Below, one piece after another: positions 114 through 26,846 of a stretch of 33,491 bases of DNA (position 1 is its first letter; each line of letters begins with the position of its first letter). A program made the position numbers and the translations under genes. Below the pieces are notes generated by a model that did no database searches, had not been told where the DNA came from, and was given only the letters and a program-made list of their open reading frames with translations. The stretch is from contig JABIFY010000100.1 in assembly GCA_018650465.1 (NCBI GenBank), positions 1 through 33,491 on the forward strand, given 5' to 3'. Source of the stretch: Alphaproteobacteria bacterium (GTDB lineage Bacteria > Pseudomonadota > Alphaproteobacteria > UBA2966).

Positions 114-371
114 AAAGAGTCGGGTACTGTGGTCCTGAACATGCGTCAGGTCAATGATGACGCCGTTATTGTTCGATCAATTGTCGAACTGGGTCATAAC
201 CTGGGGTTAGCTGTTGTTGCCGAAGGCATCGAAGACCAGGAAACCTGGGATTTGCTAAGTGATTTACGCTGCAATCAAGCCCAGGGCTATTTCATCAGCA
301 AACCGGTATTGGCTGATGATTTTTATGACTGGGTCCAGCAAAGCAAATACAGCGGGAATATCGGAAAATAA
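114..371 (+). pseudogene. C-terminal remnant of an EAL-domain (c-di-GMP phosphodiesterase) gene
   Basis: The reading frame opens after a TGA at 111-113 and ends with TAA at 369-371. Only the last 75 or so residues of an EAL domain are present. Visible are the DDAVIVRSIVELGHNLGL helix, the late AEGIED motif and the QGYFISKP ending that closes the EAL barrel. The EAL signature itself and the metal-binding Glu, Asn and Asp residues that precede this part in the family are absent, so the piece cannot be an active phosphodiesterase. The same frame upstream of the TGA (3-110) encodes about 36 residues that do not resemble an EAL domain. A break or insertion therefore probably lies around 111-130. 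A GTG at 129 could start a short peptide, but I see no ribosome site for it. The family call is confident; the pseudogene status is inferred from the missing part. Confidence 0.75.
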
Positions 372-579: not shown

Positions 580-2070
580 GGCAAAATAAAAAAGCGTCAG
601 GGAGCAAAGGAGTGGGTCCCTTGCTTCGTGTCCCGCGAAAGACACCCCTGACGCCCAGGAGCCGGTCAAGCCCCTCACGTTACCGTGTCGGTCAGCATCC
701 CGAATGCGAACATTCGGCAATCAGTTGTTCAGCCAAGCTTTTGACCAGGTTGCCGACCTTGCGGCCTGCTCATCAGTCTTTATGCTCCTGCAAAGGCCGA
801 TAAATCGACCTTCCAACCTGATTGATTGACGTCCCATCTCCGGGAACCCTGTTTCCTGCGCACTATCGTCATATTCCACCTCAGCGGTTCTGATCTGTTA
901 AGACCGAAACCTTTGCGGCTTCATTTGTCGACCGCGTTATCCGCAAGTCCCATCCAGACCTTGAATTTGATCCCGGCAGTCGGGCTCAAATCTTCCGGCC
1001 TCGCGTCCCTTTGACCTTGGCCACGTTTCCCCTTCCCTTTGTCCAGTCCCAATCTGGTCATATTCCGCGAAGAATATTTTCCTGATCGCGACCGACTTCC
1101 AGTCCGCTTCTACGCGTCCTTCCGCCTGAGCCCATTTTCATGCGCCCTTTGACACATCCAGCTTCACCTCCACCACCCATCGTCCAACCGTGCTGTCTCA
1201 GGCCTGAGCCTTCAACCGCATTGCTCAACATCTTGCGGCCTTGGTCGGGACATTTCATCGCAAGCGATAATATATCCCCGAAACCGGTTTGCGCCCTCCC
1301 GATCATCTGCCGCTGATCTTTCCTCAAGATTTCCGAAGAAACACCTGATATCCAGTTCAGTTGCTGACAACCACCACGTCTCCGCTTCTGCTTCAAAACA
1401 AGTATCCTGAGATACCCCTGTGATACCTTCCGTCCCGAAGAACGTTCATCATCACACTAATTGTCCGGGGACAATCAGCTTTGAAGGAACAGCGTTTACC
1501 TGGCGAGGTTCCGACTATTGCTGCGTCCAAATTGCAAGCAATTTTTTCGCCACAATCGTCTTTCCCTCCTGTCCGGTTCCCAAATCCGGTTTTGCTTTTG
1601 GATCCGAAAATCCTTCAAACAAAACATCGACCTTTGGTCACCGCCCGACGTTACTGTCATTTACCCAACGGAAATCCATTTCTGCAAACTTCATCCCTGC
1701 AGTAAACGACCGTCCTGTCGAATGGAGAACATGCCGTCCTGACCAAACAAGCCGTTTCGTTGAACTTGCATCTGAATTTCGAACATGCATTGCCGAAGCA
1801 ATACACTTTCCAAATTCTCAGCCCGCTCACCAGTTGCTTTTGCCTAATAATCCAGATCAAAAACCAGGGATATCAACTTGCGTCGTCACCCTTGCCCGAG
1901 ATTCAGACTTTAAACAATTGCCCGGTTTGTTCGGCGGGAGTTCACCACTTTCTGATCGTACGCTTCAGGAAATTTCTGTTCCGAAGAACTGTCTTTTCCC
2001 TTTTCGTCCGGTTTCAGGAACCGGCTTCTCTCCCCACACTTTTGCGTGCAAGTCAAGTATTGCTCAAATG
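580..2070 (-). ncRNA. Putative giant structured non-coding RNA, unrecognised class
   Basis: No open frame here looks like a protein. The minus strand is purine-rich (41 of 60 bases in 1081-1140) and carries many compact hairpins. Four have cUUCGg tetraloops: stems 1978-1981/1986-1989, 1789-1793/1798-1802, 1431-1435/1440-1444 and 1330-1333/1338-1341. A 7-bp stem 700-706/711-717 carries UUCG closed by G-C. GNRA loops occur at 676-687 (GUAA) and 755-766 (GCAA). gCUUGc loops occur at 1255-1270 and 1529-1544. Other stems are 2008-2013/2019-2024 (6 bp) and 1402-1406/1411-1415. Stems at 1431-1444, 755-766 and 1255-1270 need a G-U pair that exists only in minus-strand RNA; the plus strand would have A-C mismatches. 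The element ends in a branched stem and six U (588-654). The 5' end is not fixed; the first clear hairpin is at 2024. It does not match the rRNA, RNase P RNA, tmRNA or SRP RNA signatures I know. The strand and structured nature are seen directly; the single-transcript model is inferred. Confidence 0.62.
588..654 (-). terminator. Branched 3' stem and U-tract ending the minus-strand RNA
   Basis: A perfect 9-bp stem (594-602 with 646-654, GCGTCAGGG/CCCTGACGC) encloses two hairpins. One is AGCAA/TTGCT (603-607 with 621-625). The other is GTGTC/GACAC (628-632 with 641-645, 8-nt loop). On the minus strand the stem is followed directly by six U (588-593) and then AUUUU. This resembles an intrinsic terminator, except that the stem closes a three-way junction instead of a simple loop. 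On the plus strand the A-tract precedes the stem, so it would not terminate in that direction. Confidence 0.6.
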
Positions 2071-2114: not shown

Positions 2115-2163
2115 TGTGCATAAGTTTACTTAATAAATATTTTTAATAAACAAGTTATCCACA
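2115..2163. promoter_or_regulatory. Pair of opposed DnaA boxes around an AT-rich core
   Basis: TTATCCACA (2155-2163, plus strand) and TTATGCACA (minus strand, read from TGTGCATAA at 2115-2123) both match the DnaA-box consensus TTWTNCACA exactly. They point in opposite directions and flank 31 bp made almost only of A and T. This arrangement fits a replication-origin unwinding region or a DnaA-controlled promoter. I found no further perfect box between 2040 and 2340, so this could be a minor DnaA site and not oriC. Confidence 0.45.
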
Positions 2164-2363
2164 GATTTGCTCACAGTTTGTTATTACTGTTAAATACCAA
2201 TGCCTTGCAAAACCCATTCAGGGGCAACCGATTGGTCACAAAAATTCTGGCTGTTTCCAAAAACTGCAAACTTTTAATATATTTTCCGATTTCCGGTAAA
2301 ATCAGTCATACTAGGCCATCAAGCCTGACGATTGGACGAATGATAGTGTAATTGAGGACAGCG
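2164..2363. other. Intergenic upstream region of the mlaC-like gene
   Basis: AT-rich leader between the DnaA boxes and the mlaC-like start. No tRNA, clear terminator or convincing promoter hexamers were found. GAGG at 2354-2357 is the likely ribosome site of the next gene. Confidence 0.4.
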
Positions 2364-3083
2364 ATGCCCCCCTGCTCGGCAAAAAACAATAATCGTCTTT
2401 CTGATTCCATGACGCGACCAAATGAACATCATGTGCCCTCGCGCCGTCAAATTCTTGGGTTTGTATTTGCGTCCCCTCTGTTTATCGCGGCCGGAACGGG
2501 AACATCTGTTCTGTTCTGTTCAGGTGCCCATGCTGCGACATCGCCGCAGGGTGCCGCAGATTTTGTCCAGTGGCTGGCTGATCAAGCACTCAAGGTATTA
2601 CGCTCTCCGAATGCGTCCATGTCGGACAGGGAACGTATTCTGCGAGAGTTGTTGGCGAGCGGTTTCGATCTGAAATTCATCGGACGATTTGTTTTGGGCA
2701 GAACCTGGCGGAAACTATCGCCGGCTCAGCGCGATGCTTATATCAAGGTCTATTCAACATTTTTCCTGAATACCTATTCGGCGCGCTTCGGCGGGTACAA
2801 CGGCCAGAAATTTACAGTTCTGTCTGCACGGGGTGCCGGCAAAAAAGATGCGGTCGTCAAAACAAGGATTGACCGACCAGGTGGCGCACCCCTGACCAGT
2901 GACTGGCGCATCAGAGCCAACCAGAACGAGTTTCGCATTATCGACATTTCAGTTGAAGGCGTAAGTATGGCCGTCACACAGAGATCGGAATTTGCATCAG
3001 TAATCAAAAATAGTGGAATAGAAGGATTAATGGCTGCATTACGCGCAAGAACTGATAAAATGCCAGTCATGACTTCTAATTAA
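2364..3083 (+). CDS. mlaC: MlaC/Ttg2D-type periplasmic phospholipid-binding protein
   Basis: About 239 residues matching the toluene-tolerance Ttg2/MlaC family, the soluble carriers that move phospholipids between the outer-membrane MlaA complex and the inner-membrane MlaFEDB transporter. Family features seen are the helical start (ADFVQWLADQALKVL), the RFVLGRTWRKLSPAQRDAY segment and the later VKTRIDRPGG and WRIR strands. The N-terminus has a Tat-like motif SRRQILG (residues 26-32) before a hydrophobic stretch ending AHAA, so export folded through Tat is possible. I chose ATG 2364 because GAGG at 2354-2357 sits at good spacing. ATG 2409 would shorten the n-region but has no visible ribosome site, and a TTG at 2352 is also in frame. 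It is followed after about 33 bp by a Sel1 gene that runs directly into mlaA, so the three are probably one operon. MlaFEDB genes are not in the window. Confidence 0.85.
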   Translation: MPPCSAKNNNRLSDSMTRPNEHHVPSRRQILGFVFASPLFIAAGTGTSVLFCSGAHAATSPQGAADFVQWLADQALKVLRSPNASMSDRERILRELLASGFDLKFIGRFVLGRTWRKLSPAQRDAYIKVYSTFFLNTYSARFGGYNGQKFTVLSARGAGKKDAVVKTRIDRPGGAPLTSDWRIRANQNEFRIIDISVEGVSMAVTQRSEFASVIKNSGIEGLMAALRARTDKMPVMTSN

Positions 3084-8901: not shown

Positions 8902-10908
8902 ATGAGCCTCGCTGACGCGACTGCCGCGACCACCACAACTAATTCTTCACAGCACAACAACTTGGCGAACGCGATCCGGGCCCTGTCCATGGATGCAGTT
9001 CAGGCCGCCAATTCCGGCCACCCCGGCATGCCCATGGGCATGGCAGACGTTGCCACAGTGCTGTTTACCAAATTCCTGAAATATGATGCCAGCTGGGCAC
9101 AATTCCCCGACCGCGACCGGTTTGTACTCTCTGCTGGTCATGGCTCCATGTTGCTTTATTCCCTGTTGTACCTAAACGGCTATGACAAGTGTGATATTGA
9201 CCAGCTGCGTAATTTTCGCCAGCTCGGCAGCATGACAGCAGGCCACCCGGAAATCGGTCACTTGCCAGGCATTGAAACCACAACCGGCCCTCTGGGTCAG
9301 GGACTGGCCAATGCCGTTGGCATGGCCCTGGCGGAAAGTCACCTTGCTGCACGCTATGGCACTGACATCGTTGACCACTATACCTATGCCATTGCCGGTG
9401 ACGGTTGCTTGATGGAAGGTATCAGCCAGGAAGCAATTTCCATGGCTGGCCATTGGAACCTGAACAAGCTGATCGTTTTGTGGGACGACAACGGCATCTC
9501 CATTGATGGCTCTGTAGATATTGCTGCCAGTGACGACCAATTGGCCCGCTTTATGGCCAGTGGTTGGGATGTTTCCAGCTGTGACGGACACAACGCTGAC
9601 GAAGTGGCCGAGGCTATTGAAGCTGCCCGCAACTCCGACAAGCCATCATTAATTGCCTGTCGCACAGTTATCGGTTTTGGTGCCCCTAATAAACAGGGCA
9701 CCAGCGGTGTTCATGGCGCGCCACTGGGCGATGATGAAATTGCCGCTGCCCGCGAAGCCCTAGGATGGTCGCACGCTCCTTTTGAAATTCCGCAAGATGT
9801 GCTTAACGCCTGGCGCGAAGCTGGAAGCCGGGGCAAAGGCGCCTCAGCCGAATGGAACAGCCGTTTGGCCGGCATGGATGCCGCGAAACAAGCCGACTTC
9901 AACCTTGCCATCTCAGGTGAGCTGCCTGCTGGCTGGCAAAGTGCCATCAACGATCACAAAAAAGCGCTGAGCGCCGACGCTCCCGCCTGGGCCACACGTA
10001 AATCCAGCCAGGAAGCGCTAAAGGTCATCAACCCGGTCCTGACATCGACCATAGGGGGTTCGGCTGATCTGACGGGTTCCAACAATACGGACACACCTGA
10101 TCTGGGAATCTTGTCCGCCGATAACTATGGCGGTCGTTATATCCATTATGGCATCCGCGAACATGGCATGGGTGCTGTGATGAACGGCCTTGCCTTGCAT
10201 GGTGGTATCATTCCTTACGGTGGGACCTTCCTGGTCTTCTCCGATTACCTTCGCCCTGCCCTGCGCATGTCGGCCCTGATGGGCCAGCGAGTGATTTATG
10301 TTCTGACGCACGATTCGATTGGTCTGGGCGAAGATGGTCCGACCCACCAACCTGTCGAACATATCCCCAGCATGCGTGCCATTCCAAATGTCGCGGTCTT
10401 CCGTCCGGCAGATGCCGTGGAAACGGCGGAATGTTGGGCTTTGGCGCTGGAACGCAATGACGGACCTTCTGTCCTGGCTTTAACCCGCCAGGGTCTGGTC
10501 CTGCAGCGTACCGAGCACACCGAGGAAAACCTCTGTGCGACAGGTGCCTATGAATTATATGCCGCGGAAGGTGACGCCAAAGTTACCATACTGGCAACCG
10601 GTTCAGAAGTTGGTGTCGCAGTTGAAGCCCGCGATAAATTGCAGGCTGATGGCATCGGCACCCGGGTTGTTTCTGTCCCTTGCCTGGATTTGTTCGCTGA
10701 ACAATCCGACGCATACCAGGCTGAGATCCTGGGACCAGGCACGGTTCGCATTTCGGTCGAAGCTGCGATTGCCCAGGGCTGGGAAGGCTACTCAGATATC
10801 CATATCGGCATGACCGGTTTTGGTGCCTCGGCACCGGCTAAAGACCTTTACGTTCATTTTGGCATTACAGCTGACGCAGTTGCGGCAGCGGCAAAGTCAA
10901 AGCTTTAG
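8902..10908 (+). CDS. tkt: Transketolase
   Basis: 668 residues, the usual length. It transfers two-carbon ketol units between sugar phosphates in the pentose-phosphate or Calvin cycle, using thiamine diphosphate. Seen are the N-terminal [13 protein letters not shown] motif, [14 protein letters not shown], the ThDP/Mg motif beginning [13 protein letters not shown] (from about residue 166) and ending DDN, the pyrimidine-domain segment with the catalytic Glu ([15 protein letters not shown]), and the phosphate-binding [18 protein letters not shown]. All key residues appear intact. It leads a tkt-gap-pgk-fba series transcribed together; gap starts 31 bp after its stop. This grouping is common in alphaproteobacteria, in autotrophs (as cbbT) and heterotrophs alike. 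No RuBisCO or phosphoribulokinase is in the window. Confidence 0.97.
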
Positions 10909-10939
10909 AATCAAAGATACTCACTTACGGGAGAGACAC

Positions 10940-11947
10940 ATGGTAACGCGCGTTGCAATTAACGGTTTTGGTCGTATTGGCCGCCTGGTCCTTCGGGCCA
11001 TCGAAGAATCAAATCGCAAAGATATTCTGGTCGTTGGTATTAACGATTTGGGTTCAGTTGAAGCCAATGCCCATCTTCTTCAGTATGATTCGGTACACGG
11101 CAAGTTCCCGAAGAAAGTCAAAAAAACAAAGACTTCCATCGATGTCGGTCGTGGCAAAATGATGGTCACTGCCGAGCGTGATCCTGAAAACTTGCCGTGG
11201 GCAGAACTGAAAGTCGATGTGGCCCTGGAATGTACTGGCCTGTTCACCAAAGGCGAAATGGCCAAGAAGCATCTGAAGGCCGGTGCCAAAAAGGTTTTGA
11301 TTTCTGCCCCTGGCACAGATGTCCACAACACCATTGTTTATGGCGTCAACGACAAAACCCTTCGCAAGAGCCACAAGATCGTCTCCAACGCATCTTGCAC
11401 AACAAACTGCCTGGCACCGGTCGCTCAGGTGTTGAACGATGCGGTTGGCCTGAAACATGGCTTCATGACAACAATTCACAGCTATACAGGTGACCAGCCA
11501 GTACTGGACACTTTGCACAGTGACCTGCGCCGCGCCCGTGCCGCTGCCATGTCCATGATCCCGACTTCAACGGGTGCAGCCAAAGCCGTCGGTCTGGTGC
11601 TACCTGAACTGAAGGGCAAGCTGGACGGAACTTCGGTACGTGTACCGACACCGAACGTCTCAATGATTGACCTGACTTTTAATTCTAAAAAGAATACGAC
11701 TGTCGAAGAAGTGAATGCCGCCATCGTCAAGGCTGCCAAAGGTCGCCTCAAAGGCGTTCTGGCCACATGTGACGGCCCGATGGTTTCCATCGATTTCAAT
11801 CACGATCCAGCCAGTTCCACATTCGATCTGACCCAGACCCAGGTCATTGGCGGGAACTTTGTCCGTGTCCTGTCCTGGTATGACAACGAATGGGGTTTCT
11901 CCAATCGCATGGGCGACACCGCTGTCGCCATGAACAAACTGGGTTAA
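10940..11947 (+). CDS. gap: Glyceraldehyde-3-phosphate dehydrogenase, type I
   Basis: 335 residues, standard length. The NAD-binding start [14 protein letters not shown] is followed by an acidic residue in INDLG, which fits NAD preference. The catalytic cysteine is Cys153 in [38 protein letters not shown] and [12 protein letters not shown] are intact. It oxidises glyceraldehyde-3-phosphate to 1,3-bisphosphoglycerate, the substrate of the next gene product. The frame stays open upstream to 10820 inside tkt, but GGGAGAG just before ATG 10940 and the family N-terminus fix the start there. Confidence 0.97.
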
Positions 11948-11965
11948 TCGGCAGGATCAATAATA

Positions 11966-13168
11966 ATGGGTGATTTCAAAACGCTTGATGACTTTGACGT
12001 TAAAGGTAAGCGCATCATGGTCAGGGCCGATCTTAACGTTCCCATGCGGGACGGAGAGATTACTGATTTCACCCGCATAGACCGCCTGGTCCCGACGCTG
12101 GCTGAACTTCGCCAGCGCGGTGCCAGGGTGGTTGTGCTGTCACACTTTGGTCGCCCTAAAGGCCAGGTTGATCCGGACATGTCGCTGCAACCTGTTGCCG
12201 GTCCCTTGTCGGAGAAATTAGGAGCCCCTGTATCGGTTGCCAGCGACTGTATCGGTGCACCAGCAGCAACCGCCGTTGACGCCTTACCTGATGGCGGTGT
12301 TGTCCTTTTGGAAAACCTGCGCTTTCACGCGGGCGAAGAAAAAAACAATCCGGACTTTGCCAAAGCCTTGGCCGCCAATGCAGATATCTATGTGAATGAT
12401 GCTTTTTCCTGTGCCCACCGGGCCCATGCGTCAACGGAAGCGCTGGCACGATTGCTTCCTGCCGCTGCCGGTCGTGGCATGGAGGCCGAACTGAAGGCCC
12501 TGGCCAGCGCCCTGGAAACACCGGAACGGCCACTTGCTGCGGTTGTTGGCGGTGCCAAGGTTTCAACAAAGCTCGAATTACTGGGCAACCTGATCAAAAA
12601 TGTTGATGTGCTTGTTATCGGCGGCGGCATGGCCAATACCTTCCTGCATGCCCGCGGGATTGATGTTGGCAACAGCCTTTGCGAAGCCGACCTTGCTGAG
12701 ACCGCCCGCGAAATTGACGCCGCAGCCCAGGCTATGGGCTGTGAAATTATCCTGCCCGACGACGTTGTCGTGGCAAAAGAATTCAAGGCAAATGCTGACA
12801 ATCAAACTGTATCCGCCAATGACGTACCCGCTGATGCCATGATTCTGGATGTGGGTCCAAATGCGGCCCAGGCACTGGCTGAGCGTCTGGAAACCTGCAA
12901 AACACTCGTCTGGAATGGTCCTTTAGGGGCCTTTGAAATACCACCTTTTAATGCCGGTACCGATGCTGTGGCCCTGGCCGCCGCCAAACTGACGGCAGCC
13001 GGAAAACTTGTCAGTGTGGCTGGAGGTGGTGATACAGTTGCCGCCCTTGCCCAGGCAGGTGCCGGCGACAAATTCACTTATCTTTCAGCAGCCGGAGGTG
13101 CTTTCCTCGAATGGCTGGAGGGCAAAGATTTACCAGGTGTTGCGGCCCTGAAAGACGCAGCCGCCTGA
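11966..13168 (+). CDS. pgk: Phosphoglycerate kinase
   Basis: 400 residues, typical bacterial length. N-domain motifs are [21 protein letters not shown] and [12 protein letters not shown]; linker and C-domain motifs are [37 protein letters not shown] and [12 protein letters not shown]. The substrate arginines and the glycine-rich nucleotide loop are present. It makes ATP from 1,3-bisphosphoglycerate made by the preceding gap. The spacing to gap is 18 bp; the ribosome site (GGCAGGA) is modest. It is followed by a 68-bp gap and then fba. Confidence 0.97.
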
Positions 13169-13236
13169 TTACGTAGTATTTTATAACCTCGGGACCCCCC
13201 GACGTCAGATCAAACAAAAAGACATGAGGTAAGACA

Positions 13237-14301
13237 ATGGCTCTGGTTTCAATGCGACAACTTCTCGATCACGCGGCTGAGAATGATTACGGCTTGCCAG
13301 CGTTCAACGTCAACAACCTTGAACAGGTCATTGCCATCATGGAGGCAGCCAAATCCACTAATTCTCCGGTTATTCTGCAAGCCAGTCGTGGCGCCCGGGC
13401 TTATGCCGGAGATATTTTCCTGCGCCATTTGATCATGGGTGCAATTGAAAGTTATCCGGATTTACCGGTCTGTATGCACCAGGACCATGGCAACAGCACG
13501 GCCACCTGTACCTCTGCCATGACCAACGGTTTTTCTTCTGTGATGATGGATGGATCGCTAGAGGCTGATGGCAAGTCACCTGCTTCATATGAATATAATG
13601 TCGACACGACCAAAGCGGTTGCCGACATCGCCCATTCGGTTGGTGTTTCGGTGGAAGGTGAACTGGGTTGTCTTGGCTCTCTGGAAACAGGCGAAGGTGA
13701 AAAAGAAGATGGCCACGGCTTTGAGGGAAAGCTGGACATGGATCAGCTGCTGACCGATCCGGACCAGGCCGCAGACTTTGTTGCCAAAACCAAAGTTGAT
13801 GCTCTGGCTGTTGCCATTGGCACTTCGCACGGTGCCTACAAATTCACCCGCAAGCCCACGGGCGATATCCTGGCCATGAATGTAATCAAGGCCATCAATG
13901 CTCGCCTGCCCAACACCCACCTTGTCATGCATGGCTCATCTGCCGTGCCACAGGAACTGCAGGATATCATCAATGAGTTCGGCGGTGAGATGCCGCAAAC
14001 CTATGGTGTGCCGGTGGAAGAGGTTGTTGTTGGTATCAAGAACGGTGTGCGCAAGATCAACATCGATACGGATTGCCGCATGGCTGTTATCGGTCAATAT
14101 CGCAAGGTCGCCACAGAAAAGAAGGCTGAGTTTGACCCTCGCGCCTTTAATAAACCAGCTATGGCTGCCATGACTGAAATCTGCACAGCACGCTACGAAG
14201 CCTTTGGTGCCGCTGGCCATGCAGACAAAATCAAGGTCATTCCCATGGCGGATATGGCTACACGTTATGCCGATGGCTCCATGGACCCTAAAGTGAATTA
14301 G
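13237..14301 (+). CDS. fba: Class II fructose-bisphosphate aldolase
   Basis: 354 residues of the zinc-dependent class II family (CbbA/FbaA type). Seen are the start [19 protein letters not shown], the zinc-binding HQDHG (81-85), the VEGELGCLG segment with a conserved Glu, [20 protein letters not shown] and [14 protein letters not shown]. It interconverts fructose-1,6-bisphosphate and two triose phosphates, and in Calvin-type organisms also makes sedoheptulose bisphosphate. A good GAGGT lies just upstream of ATG 13237. It is the last gene of the tkt-gap-pgk-fba series, with a terminator 20 bp after its stop. Confidence 0.97.
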
Positions 14302-17704: not shown

Positions 17705-18670
17705 TCAGGAATTCATGATTTGAATAACCGCAGGTCCCAACAAAACAATAAAGACAACTGGCAGGAAAAAGACAATCATTGGCCCCGTCAGCATGGCTGG
17801 CAAGGACCCCGCCTTTTGTTCTGCCCTGGACATACGGGACGCGCGGTTTTCGTCACTCAGAACACGCAAGGCAACCGTAAGAGGCGTGCCATATTGTTCC
17901 GACTGCACAAGTGACGTAACAAGGCCTTTTGCTTCCTGTGTGCCGACACGACCGGCGAAATTATTTAATGCCTGACGCCGGTCACCCAGAAACCCCAATT
18001 CGGCCGTCAATAAACCCATTTCTTCAGCCAGTTGCGGTGCACTTTCACCCGTTTCCTTAACCACACGGGTTAAGGCAGCTTCCAGCGATAGCCCGGCTTC
18101 AATACAAATCAAAAGCAAATCCAGCGTGTCCGGGAAATTCAGTGTCATTTCCTCTTGCCGCTTGGTCGCTGCATTTTTGACCGTCACATTCGGCAGGTAA
18201 TATCCAAGACCGAGACCGCCAATGACGGACAGGCATTGCATAACAAAACTAAGCTTGAACAGGTTCAGGCCAAAAAACAAAATGGCCGCGACCAGAGCCA
18301 TGACGATCGGCATGACAACACGTGCGGCGACGAACATTGTCGCAGGCCCTTGCCCACGCCAACCCGCCTGAGCGAGGCGCATGCGCAGGTCCTTGTCATC
18401 AATCTGATTTTTGAGGTTTAACCGACCAAGAACCTTGGTCACGATATTCATTGTTTCCTTGCGGCCCGGACGCTGCGCACGGGATTTCTTGGCCTGCATA
18501 TTCGCCCTGAGTTCTTCCCGCCGTTCGGCCACGGCTTTCAGGCGCGGTGACAACTGATCCTTTTGCAGAAAAGGAGTGGCAATGGCAAACACGCCGAGGA
18601 ACATACCGACGGCGCCCAAAGCTATGATTATATTGGCAGGATCAAAAATAAAGGCGGCAAATTCTTCCAT
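17705..18670 (-). CDS. tadC: Tad platform protein TadC
   Basis: 321 residues with a type II secretion F (GspF) domain. The central segment LNFPDTLDLLLICIEAGLSLEAAL is the family signature. Four hydrophobic stretches are visible: one near the N-terminus (IIIALGAVGMFLGVFAIATPF), two around residues 115-155, and one at the C-terminus (MIVFFLPVVFIVLLGPAVI). With TadB it forms the inner-membrane platform that couples the CpaF ATPase to pilin extrusion. It starts 13 bp after the tadB stop; GAGG lies about 11 bp before ATG 18670. Confidence 0.95.
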   Translation of the reverse strand: MEEFAAFIFDPANIIIALGAVGMFLGVFAIATPFLQKDQLSPRLKAVAERREELRANMQAKKSRAQRPGRKETMNIVTKVLGRLNLKNQIDDKDLRMRLAQAGWRGQGPATMFVAARVVMPIVMALVAAILFFGLNLFKLSFVMQCLSVIGGLGLGYYLPNVTVKNAATKRQEEMTLNFPDTLDLLLICIEAGLSLEAALTRVVKETGESAPQLAEEMGLLTAELGFLGDRRQALNNFAGRVGTQEAKGLVTSLVQSEQYGTPLTVALRVLSDENRASRMSRAEQKAGSLPAMLTGPMIVFFLPVVFIVLLGPAVIQIMNS

Positions 18671-18683
18671 GGTCTGTCACGCC

Positions 18684-19691
18684 TCAAATCTTGAAGTTAA
18701 TCATTTTTGCCATGATGGCGCTGCCGGTGATCATTGAGATAACGCCCGCGACCATTGAAACATGGCCGCCTGACGAACTGAATAATACCATCAGATATTT
18801 GGGGCTTGTTATATAGAGCAACAAACCCATGGCGAAAGGCAAGGATCCGATAATCATTGCCGTTGTGCGCGCCTCCGCCGACATTGCTTTCACCTTGTCC
18901 TTCATAGCTTTACGAGCGCGCAGAACACCGGACAGATTGGACAAGGTTTCCGCAAGGTTGCCACCTGTTTCCTGTTGAATGGCCAAGACGATCGAAAAGA
19001 ATTTGAACTCAGGCACACCAACGCGTTCGGCGCCCCGCTCCAACGCCTCCGGCAGAGGCAAGCCAAGCCGGGTTGCTTCAATGATATGTCGAAACTCAAT
19101 ATTGATTGGGTCTGGTGCTTCGCGGGCGATGATGTTCAGACATTCGCCCAGCGGCAAGCCCGAACGGATACCCCGGACGATAATGTCTACAGATTCAGCA
19201 AAGTTTTCGACGAAGCGTTTTTTCCGCTGCCCCGCCTTGTAGGACAAAGTCATTCTCGGAAAGCCAAGGCCAATACCAACACCACCCAACAAGGCAGCCA
19301 GCGGACCAAACTTCATGACAAAGACCGTGATCATAACGGCCAAACCGAGACCAACGCTGGCCATGTAAAATTGTTTTTCGGTAATATCCAGACCTGACAT
19401 TTCAATCCGGTTTCGCAAAGTGATTCGATCGGGGCCCTGCTTCTTGTCACCTTCCAATTCATCCAGTTTGCCCTGGATCAACAAACGCCGTTGCTGGCCT
19501 TTTTTACCGCGCTGGCCACCTTTGGCACTTGCGCCGATATTGGACACCGCCGACAAACGTTTCTTGAAGCGGTTCTGGGCTCGTCCCCTGAGCACCAACA
19601 GGACGGCCAGACCGACAAACAATGATATGACCACAGTTAAACCGAGAGCCAGTATCAAGGGACCAAAGTCAGAGTCAAAAAGGGCAGCCAT
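18684..19691 (-). CDS. tadB: Tad platform protein TadB
   Basis: 335 residues with a GspF domain (VENFAESVDIIVRGIRSGLPLGECLNIIA, then RLGLPLPEALERGAERVGVPEFKFF). It has an N-terminal membrane segment, a central pair and a C-terminal pair. A basic cytosolic segment with GQRGKKGQQRR follows the first membrane span. It pairs with TadC as the inner-membrane platform and lies 10 bp downstream of cpaF. Confidence 0.95.
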   Translation of the reverse strand: MAALFDSDFGPLILALGLTVVISLFVGLAVLLVLRGRAQNRFKKRLSAVSNIGASAKGGQRGKKGQQRRLLIQGKLDELEGDKKQGPDRITLRNRIEMSGLDITEKQFYMASVGLGLAVMITVFVMKFGPLAALLGGVGIGLGFPRMTLSYKAGQRKKRFVENFAESVDIIVRGIRSGLPLGECLNIIAREAPDPINIEFRHIIEATRLGLPLPEALERGAERVGVPEFKFFSIVLAIQQETGGNLAETLSNLSGVLRARKAMKDKVKAMSAEARTTAMIIGSLPFAMGLLLYITSPKYLMVLFSSSGGHVSMVAGVISMITGSAIMAKMINFKI

Positions 19692-19701
19692 ATACCGTCC
19701 C

Positions 19702-21357
19702 CTATTCTATCGCAGCCATTAATTCCTGCTCGCGGCCATAATAGCGGGCTTTCTCATAGAAGTTGGGCCGCAATCCGGATGATTTGTGATGACCTATGAT
19801 TTTTCCATTTTCATCTTCACCTTCATATTCAAAGAGATAAAGATCCTGGATCGTCACCACCTCGCCCTCCATGCCTACGATCTCCGAAATATGGGTTACT
19901 TTGCGTGAACCGTCCCGCAAGCGTGAGGCCTGAACGACCATGTTGATCGCCGAAGATATTTGCGTTCGCATATTTTTCAAAGGAAGCTCAAAGCCACCCA
20001 TAGAAATCATGTTTTCCAAGCGGGTCAGGGCCTCACGTGGGTTGTTGGCGTGCACAGTGCCCATGGATCCATCGTGGCCAGTATTCATGGCCTGCAGCAT
20101 ATCCATGGCTTCCGCACCACGAATCTCGCCCAGGATGATGCGTTCTGGCCGCATACGCAGGCAATTCTTCACCAGATCAGTCTGGGTAATTTCACCCTTG
20201 CCTTCCAGGTTGGGGGGGCGTGTTTCAAGACGCACAACGTGATCCTGCTGCAATTGTAATTCCGCAGCATCTTCCACCGTAATCACCCGCTCGCCCTCCC
20301 CGATCTGGCGGCTAAGACAGTTCAACAAGGTCGTCTTGCCACTTCCCGTACCACCCGAAATCAAAATATTCAGGCGACATGCCGAGGCGATTTCCAATAC
20401 CTTGGCGGCCTTGGGCGACATGCTGCCCCACTCCACCAGACGGTCCAGCGTAATTGTGTCTTTTTTAAATTTGCGAATGGTCAGGATGGGGCCGTCAATG
20501 GCCAGCGGCGGCACAATAACGTTAACACGGCTGCCATCAGCAAGACGGGCATCACAAATGGGATTGGCTTCGTCGACCCGCCGGCCAACGGCACTCACGA
20601 TGCGGGTACAGATGTTCATAAGCTGGGCATTATCACGAAATTTAACATTCGACAGAATCATTTGACCATCGACTTCGATATACGTCTTTGCCCAGGTATT
20701 GACCATGATGTCGGCGATATCATCTCGCGCCAGCAAGGGCTCCAATGGACCCAACCCGAGAATATCATTGATGATATCGTTGATCAGGGTTTGCTGTTCG
20801 ACAGCGGACAAAACCAAATTCTTAACACTGATAATCTCGCCGATAATGTCACTGATCTCGGTGCGCATGGTCGCCGGGTCAAGCTTGCTTAACTCCGTCA
20901 AATCGATGGATTCAATCAGGGCACCAAAAATACCAACCTTCGCTTCTTCGAGACTGTCGTCCCTGGTTGAGGAAATCGATTCTGAAACACTTTTCTGTGG
21001 CTCGGGCTCAGGTTGCGCTGTTGGTTCAGGTTCGGGTTCCGCTTTTTTGGTAACTTCAGCAGGTTTGGCGACGGGCTCTGGCTCGCTGGCAGTTGCCGGC
21101 GATTTTTCATCCGAAAACTCTTCCGAAAGATCGAAACTGTCATCCATATCCGAGAACAGCTCTGAATCGTCGAAACCAAAGTCGTCATTTGATGCAGCGA
21201 TTTCTGCTTGCGCATCTCCGTCCAAACTACTTGTTGCGGGCTCCGCTACGATTTCAGGCGTAGCTGCAGGCTGTTCCAAAGCCGGCTCAGGCACGGCAAC
21301 AGCCGGCTGTTTGGCCGGTGCGTCATCCGCGGGTTTCGCTTGTCTTTTTCCAAACAT
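19702..21357 (-). CDS. cpaF: Tad pilus assembly ATPase CpaF/TadA with long acidic N-terminal tail
   Basis: 551 residues. The C-terminal 420 are a standard type II/IV secretion ATPase: LIGPLEPLL-like helix pair (ILGLGPLEPLLARDDIADIM), Walker A GGTGSGKTT (near 340), Asp box and Walker B (RPERIILGEIRGAEAMDML), then the His box GHDGSMGTVHANNPREAL. It powers pilin assembly. The first 120 residues are unlike a normal CpaF: alanine-, proline-, glutamate- and aspartate-rich with runs such as EPEPEPTAQPEPEP and an acidic DDSFDLSEEFSDE patch. This part is probably disordered and may be a docking tail. It starts 12 bp after the cpaE stop. Confidence 0.95.
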   Translation of the reverse strand: MFGKRQAKPADDAPAKQPAVAVPEPALEQPAATPEIVAEPATSSLDGDAQAEIAASNDDFGFDDSELFSDMDDSFDLSEEFSDEKSPATASEPEPVAKPAEVTKKAEPEPEPTAQPEPEPQKSVSESISSTRDDSLEEAKVGIFGALIESIDLTELSKLDPATMRTEISDIIGEIISVKNLVLSAVEQQTLINDIINDILGLGPLEPLLARDDIADIMVNTWAKTYIEVDGQMILSNVKFRDNAQLMNICTRIVSAVGRRVDEANPICDARLADGSRVNVIVPPLAIDGPILTIRKFKKDTITLDRLVEWGSMSPKAAKVLEIASACRLNILISGGTGSGKTTLLNCLSRQIGEGERVITVEDAAELQLQQDHVVRLETRPPNLEGKGEITQTDLVKNCLRMRPERIILGEIRGAEAMDMLQAMNTGHDGSMGTVHANNPREALTRLENMISMGGFELPLKNMRTQISSAINMVVQASRLRDGSRKVTHISEIVGMEGEVVTIQDLYLFEYEGEDENGKIIGHHKSSGLRPNFYEKARYYGREQELMAAIE

Positions 21358-21369
21358 GACGCGATTCTA

Positions 21370-22545
21370 TCAGGAACTGTTCACAAAACGCAAAAGACCT
21401 TTTTTCTTCTTTCGCGCTGCGACATGACGGCCGCTTAGTTTTCGTCCTAGCTCCATAAATGCCAAGGCTGGTTTACTCTTGGCATTCATCTGGCCAAGCG
21501 GCTGTCCATTGTTTGAAGCCGTATCAAATACAACGGGATCATGGGGCACAACGCCAAATACTGGTCCTTCGGTTGCCCCTTCAAAGTCTTTCTCTGAGAG
21601 CTCGCTCTTTTTCGCACGACCGACTTTGTTCAACACAATCCGTGCATGTCGCTGATCACCGCGCTTTTCGTTCAGATGACGTAGCCAGTTTTGTACATCA
21701 CGCAAAGAAACCAGGTCCGGCGTTGCCACAATAACCGTTTCATCCGCCATGATCAGGGCTTGGCTAATCCAGTCACTCCAGCGGGAAGGCAGGTCAAGGA
21801 CAACGAAGGGGACCCTTTGGCTCATGATATCGACCAACTGCTCCATGGCAGCAACATCAACATCCTGTGGCAGGTTCAAGGATCCAGACGTGCCAAGAAT
21901 ACTCAGATGATCATCATATTTTTGAATATATCGATCCAGCAACTGGTCATCCAGTCGGTCCGTTTGCGACAGGCAGTCAAAAATACCCTGGCGTGCCTCG
22001 ACATTCAGGTTCAAGGCTGCCGTGCCCAGCTGCATATCAAAGTCCAGAATTGCGACATCAGTGTCATATTCACTGGTAATTGCATAAGCCAGGTTCTGAG
22101 CAACTGAGCTGCCGCCGGCACCTCCATGAACACCTGTCACTGCGATAACGCGTCCTCTGGGACGGGCCTCAGGATCGGCTGTCAGGGTATAGATTGAATC
22201 TACTATTTGACGTGTCGCCAAAGGTGACGCCAGGTAGTCACTGATTCCGAGCTTTAACAAGGACCTGTACAAGCTGACATCATTAACCGAACCTGCAACG
22301 ATGACGCGCGTGCCGGGATCAACGATTTCAGCCAGATCGTCGAGACCGGCCATGATGCCGTTCGTATCACCCTCGAGTTCCACCATCAGAATTTCCGGCG
22401 TCGGACGTTCATTGTAATATTCAATTGCCGCGGGTAAGCCGCCATCAGCAACATGACCCAACATGTTGGTCAGGGTGCGGTCTTTCAAACCGTCCGTTAC
22501 ACGCGCGGCATTTTCAGCACTTAACAGGAAGGCATCAACAGCCAT
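21370..22545 (-). CDS. cpaE: Tad pilus localisation protein CpaE (MinD/ParA-like)
   Basis: 391 residues. The N-terminal 120 form a receiver-like fold lacking a clear phosphorylation site, as usual in CpaE. From about 133 a MinD/ParA-like ATPase domain follows: IAVTGVHGGAGGSSVAQNLA, AILDFDMQLGTAAL and VVLDLPSRWSDWISQALIMADETVIVATPD. The Walker A is deviant: where ParA/MinD has K-G-G-x-G-K-S/T, this has HGGAGGSS (138-147), with both lysines missing. CpaE directs the pilus machine to the cell pole in Caulobacter. I chose ATG 22545, preceded by GGGAG about 9 bp away. A TTG at 22596, directly after the cpaD stop, would add 17 residues that do not look conserved. Confidence 0.93.
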   Translation of the reverse strand: MAVDAFLLSAENAARVTDGLKDRTLTNMLGHVADGGLPAAIEYYNERPTPEILMVELEGDTNGIMAGLDDLAEIVDPGTRVIVAGSVNDVSLYRSLLKLGISDYLASPLATRQIVDSIYTLTADPEARPRGRVIAVTGVHGGAGGSSVAQNLAYAITSEYDTDVAILDFDMQLGTAALNLNVEARQGIFDCLSQTDRLDDQLLDRYIQKYDDHLSILGTSGSLNLPQDVDVAAMEQLVDIMSQRVPFVVLDLPSRWSDWISQALIMADETVIVATPDLVSLRDVQNWLRHLNEKRGDQRHARIVLNKVGRAKKSELSEKDFEGATEGPVFGVVPHDPVVFDTASNNGQPLGQMNAKSKPALAFMELGRKLSGRHVAARKKKKGLLRFVNSS

Positions 22546-22596
22546 AACCCAGGCTCCCGGTGTACATTCTATTCCTTTGAGAAGGCATGCGCGCAA

Positions 22597-23406
22597 TCAT
22601 TCGGTCGTCTCCGTCGAAGATTGACCAGTCGTCGTACCCTCAGGTGCCGGTGCACTACCGGTGCCAGACGCAGCCGGGACGACAGGTGAGCCAGCGCCGA
22701 CGGTACCGACACCCTTCTTCGGATGTCCACGCGGAACGCCGACTGTCCGGATTCTAGTGTCAACCGTGGCACCATCCGCAGCACGGCTCTTGCGTGGTTT
22801 GATCAGGTCTGCAGGATCAACCAGCATGGCACCAAGATTGGACTGGGTCGCACAGCCAAAATTGCTGTGGTCTGAATTAGCGCGATTATTATCAACGTTC
22901 TTGCTCCAGTCCGGGCAATTGGGTAACCCCGCAATATAGCGTATGTATCCCAGTTCGATATCCGCCGATCCTTTGGGTGTTTTGATAACCGGTGTCAAAA
23001 AAACTTCCAGCTCTTCAGCCTTGATTCCCTGGTTTCTGGCAACTTCTCGTAATGCCGCCAGACGGTTATTGCGGACCGCCAGAGTTAAACCCCTGGTCGC
23101 CAGGCGAGCCGTAATATGGCCATGACCTGCAACAATAAAGTCACTGAAATAGCGTTGTAACTTATCATTGTCAGCCGCGGATAGATGACCTTGCGCTTTC
23201 GCAAAAGTGATCCAGTTCCGGGCCACCGTGCTTTCGACTGTCACTGCGTGGCGCTTGCGATAATCGTGATCCGTTTCATTGTATAAATACCCGGCGGAAG
23301 GATCGGAACACCCGGTTAACAACGCTGTCACCGCAATCGATACGCCAACAGCGATTGAAAATCTGAAGCGAGGCGTTGATCCGAGGCTATGTCGATTAAT
23401 AGTCAT
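22597..23406 (-). CDS. cpaD: Tad pilus assembly lipoprotein CpaD
   Basis: 269 residues with a lipoprotein signal ending LLTGC (Cys33). The CpaD family core follows, with GYIRYIAGLPNCPDWSKNVDN and SNFGCATQSNLGAMLVDPADLI near the end; two conserved Cys lie in NCPDW and FGCATQ. CpaD is an outer-membrane accessory that helps the CpaC secretin. The final 60 residues are a low-complexity Gly, Thr, Ser and Pro tail. It sits 2 bp after cpaC and directly before cpaE. Confidence 0.93.
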   Translation of the reverse strand: MTINRHSLGSTPRFRFSIAVGVSIAVTALLTGCSDPSAGYLYNETDHDYRKRHAVTVESTVARNWITFAKAQGHLSAADNDKLQRYFSDFIVAGHGHITARLATRGLTLAVRNNRLAALREVARNQGIKAEELEVFLTPVIKTPKGSADIELGYIRYIAGLPNCPDWSKNVDNNRANSDHSNFGCATQSNLGAMLVDPADLIKPRKSRAADGATVDTRIRTVGVPRGHPKKGVGTVGAGSPVVPAASGTGSAPAPEGTTTGQSSTETTE

Positions 23407-23408
23407 GG

Positions 23409-24929
23409 CTATTCCATCACAAACCCGACAGGGCCCTTTGGCTTGCCCTTCGGCGGTTTTGTGCCCTTGCGTCCATAATGTGCATGCAAGCGACCAAGCA
23501 AATACATATCAGCATCGCTGGAAGCAGCAAAGCCATCCGTCGGCAAGACCAGAGCGTGCTCTGCCACCGGACGAACCAGATAGGCCGAAACAGTAACAAC
23601 CAGTTCGGATTCAGCCTTTGTAAATGAAGTGCTGCGGAAAAGCGCGCCAAGGATCGGGATATCAACCAGCCCTGGGAAACCGCTTTGCGTATTGTTCAGA
23701 TCATTTTGTAACAGGCCGCCGATAACCAAACCACCACCACTTGCCATTTCGACAGTTGTCTGGGCCCGACGGGTTCGAAAACCAGGAATCGACACGCCTT
23801 GAATTGTCTGCGAATTTGTCGAATCAACTTCACTGACAGATGTTCGAACCTTGAGATTAATTCGTCCTGTATCAAGAACAGTCGGCGTAAAATCCAGTTC
23901 AACGCCAAAATCACGGAAGCGGATTGTAAGGTTGCCGTTGCGATCCACACCTGAGGGAACCGGAATTTCACCACCGGCCAGGAACGTCGCATGTTCTCCG
24001 GATAACGAAGTCAGATTAGGCTCGGCCAGTGTCCGTACCAGTCCTTCCGTTTCCAGGGCATCCAATGCCAAAGCCAGGTTCCGGAACGGATTACCGGCGA
24101 ACAGACCGAACTTGATTGTGCCGCTTCCTTGTGGACCAACGATACCTGTACCCGTTAACGGCGTCAGAAAGGTTGAAGAGTTGCCAACAACATTTCCAGC
24201 CTGACCAATGGAGCCGCTGAGACCAAGGGTTTTCGTAACAGAACGCCGAACTTCGGCAACACGAACCCGTAACATGACTTGTTGTTCAGCCAGAACCTGG
24301 ATGCGGTTAATGATCTGTTCGTCAGAGGTCACGAAGCGACGTGCCAGATCACGGGCGTAACTCGCCGCGTAAGACGTGCGCACCTTACCGGTCATCAGAA
24401 TATTGCCCTGAACTGACGTCACCGAAATATTTTCATCCGGCAACACAGTTTTCAACATGGTCTGCAATGTCGATAGTTCCTGGGCCACAACAATGTTCAT
24501 GTTGTAGATGATATTGGAGTCGGCATCCAACATGATCACGCTGGTCGACCCGGATTGTTGCCCCAGCATATAAACCAGCCGCGGCGATTTCACGACGACA
24601 TCGGCGACAGCGCTTGAGGAGACAATAATATCTTTCACGTCAACGGGAAGACGCATTAACTGCGCACGACCAATCGCCAGTTTCAAAGTCCTGGGCGTGT
24701 CAGAGGGAGCGCCAAGCGTCGTGACCGTCAAGGGCGTTCCGCTGCTTTCGATTATGATCTGTTTATTACCGTCTTCAGGCACCATTTGTGCGTGGGCTGA
24801 TATTGGCAGCAAAAAGGCCAACCCCATTACGAAGACAGTTCCGGGAACAACTTTGTTCATATTAGTGAAAAACTTGAGACCAGCAGGCAACAATCGCCCC
24901 AATGCGGTCCTGTATTCCGGGCCGCTCAT
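23409..24929 (-). CDS. cpaC: Tad/Flp pilus secretin CpaC (RcpA)
   Basis: 506 residues. The signal peptide is preceded by a long n-region. A pilus-assembly N-terminal domain follows (LKLAIGRAQLMRLPVDVKDI, VVVKSPRLVYMLGQQSGSTS), then a BON-like segment (VLPDENISVTSVQGNILMTG), then the secretin pore domain (GSGTIKFGLFAGNPFRNLALALDAL, LAEPNLTSLSGEHATFLAGGEIPVP, GGGLVIGGLLQNDL, VDIPILGALFRSTSFTKAESELVV). It forms the outer-membrane channel for the pilus. ATG 24929 overlaps the cpaB stop by 4 bp (ATGA) and has GGAGG 4-5 bp upstream, so I keep the long n-region; ATG 24860 (MNKVVPG) lacks a ribosome site. Confidence 0.95.
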   Translation of the reverse strand: MSGPEYRTALGRLLPAGLKFFTNMNKVVPGTVFVMGLAFLLPISAHAQMVPEDGNKQIIIESSGTPLTVTTLGAPSDTPRTLKLAIGRAQLMRLPVDVKDIIVSSSAVADVVVKSPRLVYMLGQQSGSTSVIMLDADSNIIYNMNIVVAQELSTLQTMLKTVLPDENISVTSVQGNILMTGKVRTSYAASYARDLARRFVTSDEQIINRIQVLAEQQVMLRVRVAEVRRSVTKTLGLSGSIGQAGNVVGNSSTFLTPLTGTGIVGPQGSGTIKFGLFAGNPFRNLALALDALETEGLVRTLAEPNLTSLSGEHATFLAGGEIPVPSGVDRNGNLTIRFRDFGVELDFTPTVLDTGRINLKVRTSVSEVDSTNSQTIQGVSIPGFRTRRAQTTVEMASGGGLVIGGLLQNDLNNTQSGFPGLVDIPILGALFRSTSFTKAESELVVTVSAYLVRPVAEHALVLPTDGFAASSDADMYLLGRLHAHYGRKGTKPPKGKPKGPVGFVME

Positions 24930-26146
24930 TGCGCCTCCTTAAACTTCAACGTTTGAATTGCGCCGGCCCGGTCCACACGAACCGTCGTTGTCACGACCGG
25001 TGCAACGGACACTGGATCAACCTTTTTAACCGTTTTTGCCACGACAGGTTTCGGTGCAGGGTCGACAACTTTTACTGATGCCTTTTTGACCACAGCCTTG
25101 GGCTTTGGCTTAATCACAACCGGTTCGACGGCTTCGGGTTTCATGATCGCTGGTGTTTGCTTGTTGGTCGTCCCCGCTCTTGGCACTAATACCGGTGACT
25201 CAATTCTGATTTTGGGGCGAGTGTTAACCGGTTTTACCACTGGCGCAGTGGCCTTCGGCTGAACCGAAACAGATGCGCCATCAGGCCCGTCAAGCCAGCG
25301 TTTCAAACCAAACTCATGCATCGCCTGGTTATTCTGTTCATGAATATGGGAAACAAGTCCGCCGCGCAGGGAAGACAGAACTTCCAGATCAGTCGTAAAG
25401 GGATAGCTTCTTTCCTGCCGGGGTGTTTCAGACTGAACATGGCTGCGCAGCGCCAAAAACAGTTTGCCCATTCGGCGAACATTGGCCAGAATTTCGACCT
25501 GTTTTTCCGTGACTTCAAGCGTCGCGGATTTTGGCTTTTTTGTCGCCTTGCCCTGCTTGTCAGCGTTCTGATTTATCGCGAGCACCCGAACATTACGCAA
25601 GATTGTTTCGCTAACCTTCCGCGATTCATTCACGCGCGGTATCTTATCGCTTTCCACATCCCAACCAACAGAGATGGTTGTGGTCAAAATGACATCGACA
25701 AAATCGCCGGGTGTCACAAGTCCGGCGACGCCAACAATCGGGTCTACCTTAATGGCAACGGCCCGCATGCCCGGTTTCAGACCCGAAGCCAGAAATCCTT
25801 TTTCACCTGAGCGATAAACCAGATCATTACTGATCGGGACACCAGCTTTGATCTGACGCCGAACCACGGCACCGACAAATTCCTTGTCGAGATCAGTTCC
25901 TTTAAGAACATAGTTTTTGTTAAGACCCTGGGCTGGCCATGCCTGCCAGCGAAAATGATCCTTTGCCTTGAGCACCGTTCCACCTGGCAAGTCCGATTTT
26001 GCAACCAGGACACGCTCGGCAGGAACAATCTCTTTTGTCGCTTCGACAGACGGCACCTGTGACCCCAGATAAGACTGGATCAAAAAGGCCGTCAATATCG
26101 ACACACCCAGTGCCGCGACGATTATGATGATCGTGCTCATCCGCAT
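24926..26146 (-). CDS. cpaB: Tad pilus assembly protein CpaB (RcpC) with lysine/proline-rich tail
   Basis: 406 residues. An N-terminal membrane anchor (STIIIIVAALGVSILTAFLI) is followed by an SAF domain (VLVAKSDLPGGTVLKAKDHF, GAVVRRQIKAGVPISNDLVY) and the RcpC core (GMRAVAIKVDPIVGVAGLVTPGDFVDVILT, ETILRNVRVLAINQ, TLEVTEKQVEIL). CpaB is periplasmic and stabilises the secretin. From about residue 300 a 100-residue tail is rich in Lys, Pro and Val (VVIKPKPKAVVKKASVKVV and similar), longer than the usual CpaB end and probably disordered. ATG 26146 and ATG 26140 are both plausible starts. Confidence 0.93.
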   Translation of the reverse strand: MRMSTIIIIVAALGVSILTAFLIQSYLGSQVPSVEATKEIVPAERVLVAKSDLPGGTVLKAKDHFRWQAWPAQGLNKNYVLKGTDLDKEFVGAVVRRQIKAGVPISNDLVYRSGEKGFLASGLKPGMRAVAIKVDPIVGVAGLVTPGDFVDVILTTTISVGWDVESDKIPRVNESRKVSETILRNVRVLAINQNADKQGKATKKPKSATLEVTEKQVEILANVRRMGKLFLALRSHVQSETPRQERSYPFTTDLEVLSSLRGGLVSHIHEQNNQAMHEFGLKRWLDGPDGASVSVQPKATAPVVKPVNTRPKIRIESPVLVPRAGTTNKQTPAIMKPEAVEPVVIKPKPKAVVKKASVKVVDPAPKPVVAKTVKKVDPVSVAPVVTTTVRVDRAGAIQTLKFKEAQ

Positions 26147-26239
26147 TAAGTCAAATATCTTCCCGGTTACACAAGTCCAAGATCAATAAGGGTTTTTTTC
26201 AGGTTGTACGATATCGTCCCTGCCCCAATGGAGCAAGCG

Positions 26240-26770
26240 TCAGCCAAACAGTTTTAACTGTTCCAAAAGTTCACCCAAACTAATTATTCCAGCCAAACTG
26301 ATTGCTACACCGTATGGAATACCTTCATTTTCAGTCAACAATTTCTGCACTTTTCTCCCCGTAATGACATTTTCTGGCCACCAGGCTTTCGATTTTCTTA
26401 AGACCAGTATCAAAAGTGCAAGAATTCCACCAAATATCATTACAGTAAGCATGAAGAGCGGCCACGCATCCGGGGCCAGCCACGGCGACAGAGAGGCAAG
26501 AAGTTTTACGTCACCGCCTCCGACGACACCCCGGGCATGCATGAACATCCCGAAAATCAAGACGGCCAAGCCGATACCCGACCGCAATAAAAAGTTCTCA
26601 TACCCCATTGTTGAAAAGTAACCGAAAACGAAAAACAACAAGGCAAGCGACAAGCAAAGCCAGTTTGGAATTCGGAATTCAGTGATGTCAGTGTAAGCCG
26701 CGGTCAATAATAACATTGCAGCCCCGATCACGGGAACGACTGCATAAGTGTAATGCGAAAAATCAGGCAT
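26240..26770 (-). CDS. cpaA: Prepilin peptidase CpaA (A24 family)
   Basis: 176 residues from ATG 26770, the usual size for CpaA/TadV. The two catalytic aspartates are Asp28 in YTDITEFRIPN and Asp87 in GVVGGGDVKLL (G-x-G-D). Four or five membrane spans are visible. It cleaves the leader of the Flp pilin and of the TadE and TadG pseudopilins. A longer frame opens at TTG 26818, but the 16 extra residues are polar and unlike the family. No good ribosome site is seen at either start. It lies 225 bp after the flp stop, with two hairpins between, and 93 bp before cpaB. Confidence 0.92.
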   Translation of the reverse strand: MPDFSHYTYAVVPVIGAAMLLLTAAYTDITEFRIPNWLCLSLALLFFVFGYFSTMGYENFLLRSGIGLAVLIFGMFMHARGVVGGGDVKLLASLSPWLAPDAWPLFMLTVMIFGGILALLILVLRKSKAWWPENVITGRKVQKLLTENEGIPYGVAISLAGIISLGELLEQLKLFG

Positions 26771-26846
26771 TACTTTATCTGAATGTTCAATTGTTATATT
26801 TTTGCGTACGAGATTCAAGACCGCAGAATAAATGTTTCGCCGTCAT

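Follow-up and report, generated by a model that had tools for sequence, protein, structure and literature searches.

A predicted large structured RNA gene family with a putative DnaA-box array upstream of its promoter in Alphaproteobacteria

What fills the nearly 1.5 kb in front of mlaC on this alphaproteobacterial contig, where there is no believable protein gene and where the original prediction, made from the letters alone, placed a very large, purine-rich, structured RNA on the minus strand? Within our window (the whole 33,491-nt stretch analysed, contig JABIFY010000100.1), the computational evidence indicates that positions 2050 to 585 of the minus strand are a single large noncoding RNA gene of 1466 nt with its own promoter and terminator. 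The prediction was largely right: the RNA has homologues and covarying pairs, its promoter and terminator are conserved, it matches no Rfam family, 59% of its nucleotides are purines, and the limits first proposed (580–2070) almost equal those of the gene. Conservation, covariation and membership of known RNA or protein families have all been looked into, and the RNA reading came through each of them. The prediction had not foreseen a putative DnaA-box array at 2115–2175, the precise position of the terminator, how widespread the family is, or that its members usually sit next to sdhC.

The predicted RNA gene and its structure

All features of the gene are read on the minus strand, from about 2050 (5′) to about 585 (3′), and we infer the 5′ ends, here and in relatives, from promoter alignment. 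For the predicted −35 element, TTGGTA (2080–2085), the majority of 28 loci have a TTG that starts at −36 or −35, and an 18-nt spacer separates the element from a predicted −10 element, AATACT (2056–2061), identified in the aligned promoters. A terminal hairpin, CACGC/GUGUG (2035–2048), opens the RNA, and nearly all relatives have a hairpin at the same place. There follows a 5′ branched domain (1742–1935, closing helix 1935–1923/1754–1742) with a 15-pair arm that is capped by cUUCGg at 1794–1797 and has changes on both sides in five of its pairs. The main multibranched body of about 1 kb (690–1739) is predicted to be enclosed by the helix 1739–1731/698–690, which covariation leaves unproven because it is invariant between the two species compared, and the body's hub starts with a recurring motif, CAGGACGG (1724–1741), that is found eight times in the family against 0.5 expected. 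Last comes the conserved 3′ domain (585–679), which is what the covariance models R1 and R2 describe: a hairpin (675–669/663–657), a three-way junction closed by 656–646/602–592 and carrying hairpins 643–630 and 625–603, and then a U-rich tail. The closing stem of this junction, GGCGUCAGGG/CCCUGACGC, together with the tail is the predicted intrinsic terminator, and a pattern-based terminator scan passed it over because the branched loop falls outside the scan's definition.

The stable tetraloops that drew attention to the region are indeed there. CUUCGG occurs on the minus strand at 1333–1338, 1435–1440, 1793–1798 and 1981–1986, every copy is the loop of a stem in the minimum-energy fold (5, 5, 9 and 4 bp, with closing-pair probabilities of 0.52, 0.95, 0.99 and 0.89), and the proposed excess over chance is borne out by dinucleotide shuffles, only 6 of 2000 of which reach four copies (mean 0.51). 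Bodies of 27 family members hold 78 copies against 13.2 expected, so that the tetraloop signal belongs to the family at large, and the flanks of the cUUCGg stems vary in paired fashion (CCUUCGGG, 32 against 1.8; UCUUCGGA, 22 against 0.7, in the same 27). The fold also contains the GUAA loop (680–683), a GCAA loop (1878–1881) and the two gCUUGc loops (1261–1264 and 1535–1538) that had been described. The 7-bp UUCG hairpin claimed at 700–717 fares less evenly: it is present, with seven of seven pairs unchanged in a close relative, but its pair probability in the single-sequence ensemble is 0.36. A purine-rich RNA with many GGA and GGAA motifs and repeated hairpins might of course suggest a CsrB-like sponge that soaks up CsrA or another small RNA-binding regulator; fully unpaired GGA, however, numbers 74 against 60.8 expected, which is little loop enrichment, and the loops that are enriched are UUCG and GCAA. 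We set the sponge aside because GGA is not clearly enriched in loops, and we regard it as highly improbable.

Is the structure itself under selection? The computational indications are that it is. The window RNA folds at −553.6 kcal/mol against −479.1 ± 9.8 for 16 shuffles (z = −7.6), and its opposite strand folds much worse (−393.2); across 31 members z runs from −2.6 to −9.3, and the sense strand is more stable than the antisense in all 31. When the body structure predicted from the window alone is tested on a same-genus relative (G001, 72% identical over the RNA), 26 double compensations appear, where the null has a mean of 11.9 and a maximum of 20 in 1000 trials; the reverse test gives 28 against 12.1, and another pair of members (G212 to G100) 17 against 4.5. 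Compensation in the body is weak or absent in some other pairs (G220 to G309, G318 to G229), possibly through poor alignment, and some distant pairs have no excess of body covariation, probably because their alignments fail. For the 3′ domain, 23 of 32 pairs have changes on both sides and 96.6% of cells are paired, a share that sliding the partner brings down to 55% or less, in an alignment that is fitted to the covariance model; an unfitted alignment of eight relatives (A1) gives 5 such pairs. These compensatory changes, in body and 3′ domain, and the sense-specific stability argue for selection on the RNA itself.

They leave the idea of a decayed protein gene, or of plain spacer with chance hairpins, a practically negligible probability. 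Its one attraction is an open frame of 237 aa on the plus strand (1420–2133), but this has no Pfam match and no plasmid match, and the largest open frames likewise lack significant Pfam matches. Between the window and the same-genus relative, moreover, not one of 17 indels has a length divisible by three and the mismatches favour no codon phase, and the covariation and conserved ends speak against decay as well.

Could the RNA then be a very diverged member of a large RNA family that is already known? Its size and ornate folding certainly recall OLE, GOLLD and ROOL, but in the window and some 30 relatives no Rfam 15 family reaches its cut-off, which agrees with the initial remark that none of their features was recognised and makes hidden membership, to our minds, extremely doubtful. 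A permissive Rfam search returned chance matches only. Part of the GOLLD family has a tRNA embedded or adjacent, and ARAGORN finds no tRNA in the window. Taken by type, the RNA is longer than 500 nt, noncoding and extensively structured in a conserved way, as a giant ornate RNA is, the exception among relatives being two copies of 171 nt in one genome.

An elastic family with old neighbours

How widely is this RNA spread? At least 15 families of Alphaproteobacteria and about 36 genomes carry it, at lengths of 0.17–1.5 kb, both counts being lower bounds in which families are a tool's f-number labels and many genomes are metagenome assemblies. The distribution is patchy: in a sample of 385 genomes from the class, about 31 are carriers. 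A DNA search of 60 related genomes gave a two-part, near-full match in the same-genus relative; in G015 and four more genomes of the family it was the ends that matched. Covariance models of the 3′ domain, first R1 and then R2 (built from 14 sequences), match 21 of the 385 class genomes, one of them a relic, and in a 398-genome sample of the phylum the model matches the window's own genome only. Among the named carriers are a Sneathiellales bacterium, a Minwuiaceae bacterium and the alphaproteobacteria UBA2966, 277c_15 and SI054_bin61; most of 55 pattern matches in named genomes are chance, and seven fit the model. Genomes with no model match have the same arrangement upstream of sdhC in f103, f136 and G229, while a search for the array alone added f9, f106 and a further f103 member, these members beyond the model's reach being recognised by eye from the array, the location and a similarly built terminator. 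In all these searches, the family has so far been found in Alphaproteobacteria only.

Relatives share the promoter, the 5′ hairpin and the 3′ domain, and between these the body diverges. Most RNAs are 460–1000 nt long, those of the window's own genus reach 1269 and 1466 nt, and two minimal copies of 171 nt in G002 have array, promoter, 5′ hairpin and 3′ domain with almost no body, so that a function that depends on the body cannot be universal. These two copies lie on the chromosome and on a 93-kb contig (L012 3720–4030, L013 3850–4160) in similar flanks, and related flanking sequence surrounds the 3′ domain of G273, which has neither array nor body and which we judge to be the relic. In its second copy (L225, about 1991–2560 of G317:C106), G317 has about ten tandem 33-nt UUCG hairpin units for a body, between the same DnaA array and 3′ domain as in usual copies. 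With bodies as variable as these, the ends and the array are the more constant parts. In the RNA of G030 (L068 6969–7700) a stretch of about 140 nt is directly repeated within the body (73% identity, E 4.6e-16), and we considered growth by internal duplication as a general rule for the body; it is clear in this RNA and in the second G317 copy only, and we dropped it. In L181, L187, L190, L238 (f103) and L225, sequence similar to a portion of the 3′ domain (GGCGUC...GGGCUCCGCAUCCAGGC) recurs as a second motif about 100–150 nt past the terminator.

The gene lies upstream of sdhC, mostly in divergent orientation, in f18, f88, f114, f115, f155, f103, f136, f9 and G223 (f106), with MaoC/mesaconyl-CoA-hydratase-like, HpcH/HpaI or pyridoxal-kinase-like genes on its far side in several of these loci; it is absent beside sdhC in f39. 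In the window and its same-genus relative the RNA adjoins mlaC-Sel1-mlaA instead: mlaC (2352–3083, plus strand, by Pfam) is the divergent neighbour on the array side, followed by a Sel1-repeat gene and mlaA, and a fragment of an EAL-domain gene (129–371, plus strand, by Pfam) converges on the terminator. Such recurrent chromosomal neighbourhoods argue for an old chromosomal locus and not a mobile element. A plasmid or phage element had been considered, and three sample queries gave no match in plasmid or phage collections; the one pattern match on a viral contig failed the RNA model.

Elsewhere in the window, the listed frame of the EAL-domain gene (1–371) starts within the domain, and the frame seems to be broken near 110–130. 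By inspection, 8902–14301 holds apparent transketolase, GAPDH, phosphoglycerate kinase and fructose-bisphosphate aldolase genes in succession, and 17705–26818 reads as a Tad/Cpa pilus assembly locus, with TadC/TadB, CpaF, CpaE, secretin, CpaB and prepilin peptidase-like genes.

The putative DnaA-box array and what it may do

Most members have a putative DnaA-box array 73–125 bp upstream of the RNA start, in nearly invariant spacing. In the window, a consensus (strong) box, TGTGGATAA, stands at −113 (2155–2163, minus strand), a weak DnaA-like box, TGTGAGCAA, lies 12 bp further upstream at −125 (2167–2175, minus strand), in a position kept in relatives, and an inverted consensus box, TTATGCACA, follows at −73 (2115–2123, minus strand), 40 bp start-to-start from the strong one. 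Measured from the 5′ hairpin, most loci have the strong forward box at about −113, the inverted one at about −73 and the further box at about −125, with TGTG half-sites near −102 and −91 and TGTG spacings that peak at 11–12, 22–23 and 34 bp; these positions recur across a dozen families. Three f136 loci have their boxes in a non-standard layout, and some members have mismatched boxes.

How specific is this geometry? A pair of boxes with this spacing occurs once in the whole of the window's own genome, and 1.49 Mb of sampled sequence contains 30 exact boxes and just two clusters of two within 120 bp, both at RNA loci. The whole-genome pattern TGTGNAWAA-N20-50-TTWTNCACA finds the RNA locus and nothing else in eight of nine matching genomes, the window's own included, and in the ninth (G317) its matches are the two RNA copies. 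A stricter pattern for the array alone matches 14 of 332 genomes, and its reversed control none; 11 of the 14 are RNA loci, including families that the RNA model had missed, and the rest are a box-rich site that resembles an origin (G262) and two sites in apparently coding sequence. The array geometry and the conservation of the RNA gene are thus indicated computationally; transcription, DnaA binding, cell-cycle control and a function are what we infer from them.

DnaA boxes in an AT-rich island resemble oriC, and a replication origin, primary or secondary, with the RNA as an origin transcript was at first our favoured reading. GC skew overturned it in six genomes (G002 was sampled too and is too noisy to use). 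In G015, G346, G173, G309 and G329 the skew does not change sign across the locus, and the complete 4.36-Mb chromosome of G312 switches skew at 0.46–0.66 Mb and 2.66–2.86 Mb, whereas the RNA lies at 3.98 Mb, mid-replichore, as the only DnaA cluster in the 400 kb sampled. We now find an origin scarcely credible.

What we lean towards is an undescribed family of large RNAs with a DnaA-gated promoter, whose product acts in trans as a scaffold or decoy. DnaA would oligomerise on the array, through the head-to-tail boxes at about −125 and −113, the half-sites every 11–12 bp and the inverted box at −73, and the oligomer would gate the adjacent downstream promoter; with its promoter gated by DnaA, RNA output would follow both the activity of DnaA and the replication cycle. 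Usually 0.5–1.5 kb long, the RNA might then serve in trans as a scaffold or decoy, multivalent and very stable, with its conserved ends as anchors, and here, as with its binding partners, we are frankly speculating. On a more ambitious version, which we entertain tentatively and with rather more doubt than belief, the locus would be an alphaproteobacterial replication-control module, in which an off-origin DnaA array of fixed geometry switches a giant RNA that feeds back on DnaA, the chromosome or the cell-cycle state.

The main rival dispenses with the product. A cis-acting site like E. coli datA or DARS could use the array to titrate, inactivate or reactivate DnaA, with long, terminated transcription clearing or insulating the array and the RNA itself mattering little, and as one joint explanation we consider this serious but unlikely. 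A DnaA-box cluster outside oriC, by which such sites are recognised, is present as far as the letters can tell; the geometry of the array has been kept better than the body of the RNA, which is lost in the 171-nt RNAs of G002 and replaced by tandem 33-nt hairpins in the second G317 copy; the G312 locus is mid-replichore, roughly 0.9–1.0 Mb from a skew switch; and transcription through E. coli datA controls datA (PMC10950094). Against it, the array is upstream of the promoter and so outside its transcript, the DARS2 core is reportedly found only in gammaproteobacteria that have Fis (PMC4245941), and the compensatory changes in body and 3′ domain, with the sense-specific stability, tell against a cis role as the whole story. 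A DnaA-gated RNA that acts in trans thus continues to be our preferred reading.

Why should this matter? A promoter joined to apparent initiator sites, whose spacing in many families is almost exact to the base pair, is a strong functional lead, and because these apparent DnaA sites sit at the promoter in near-fixed spacing, the RNA's control is directly testable. Through the array, a giant RNA may be connected with the replication cycle, and the locus suggests replication-linked regulation in Alphaproteobacteria, in which, as far as we know, off-origin DnaA control sites are little known. To our knowledge bacteria have yielded very few giant noncoding RNAs, most of them of open function, and if the control module is real, this would be the first giant ornate RNA we know of that is tied to the replication initiator. 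The open-licence literature yielded no description of such an RNA family, and we know of no RNA family or DnaA locus that combines these parts, which is why we rate the locus as new in kind; a cautious reader could label the RNA a new family of a known kind, the giant ornate RNAs.

Comparison with known systems

Where, then, does the locus stand among its nearest analogues? Like the DnaA arrays of oriC, it has boxes phased at about 11 bp, an AT-rich island and an inverted box, but it lacks the skew switch and has a promoter and then a terminated RNA. With datA, DARS1 and DARS2 it shares the character of a noncoding chromosomal site with DnaA boxes away from oriC, and the activity of E. coli datA is tied to transcription (PMC10950094, PMC4585315); those sites, compared here by description, differ in being DNA sites without a dedicated structured RNA and in having another phylogenetic range. 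CcnA of Caulobacter is, like our RNA, an alphaproteobacterial noncoding RNA tied, in our case putatively, to replication and cell-cycle control: CcnA lies in the origin, is presumably activated by CtrA and acts on the ctrA and gcrA mRNAs (PMC8959179), whereas the present RNA lies away from the origin, with DnaA boxes. The closest kin in form are OLE, GOLLD and ROOL, very large, stand-alone, multibranched RNAs with stable tetraloops and a function long unknown, all three of which have been seen by cryo-EM (PMC12286853). From these the present RNA differs in matching no covariance model, in being chromosomal, often beside sdhC and without a phage or plasmid match for the queries tried, in its home among the Alphaproteobacteria, in a body that ranges from almost nothing to about 1.3 kb between conserved ends, and in the DnaA-box array that stands upstream of it.
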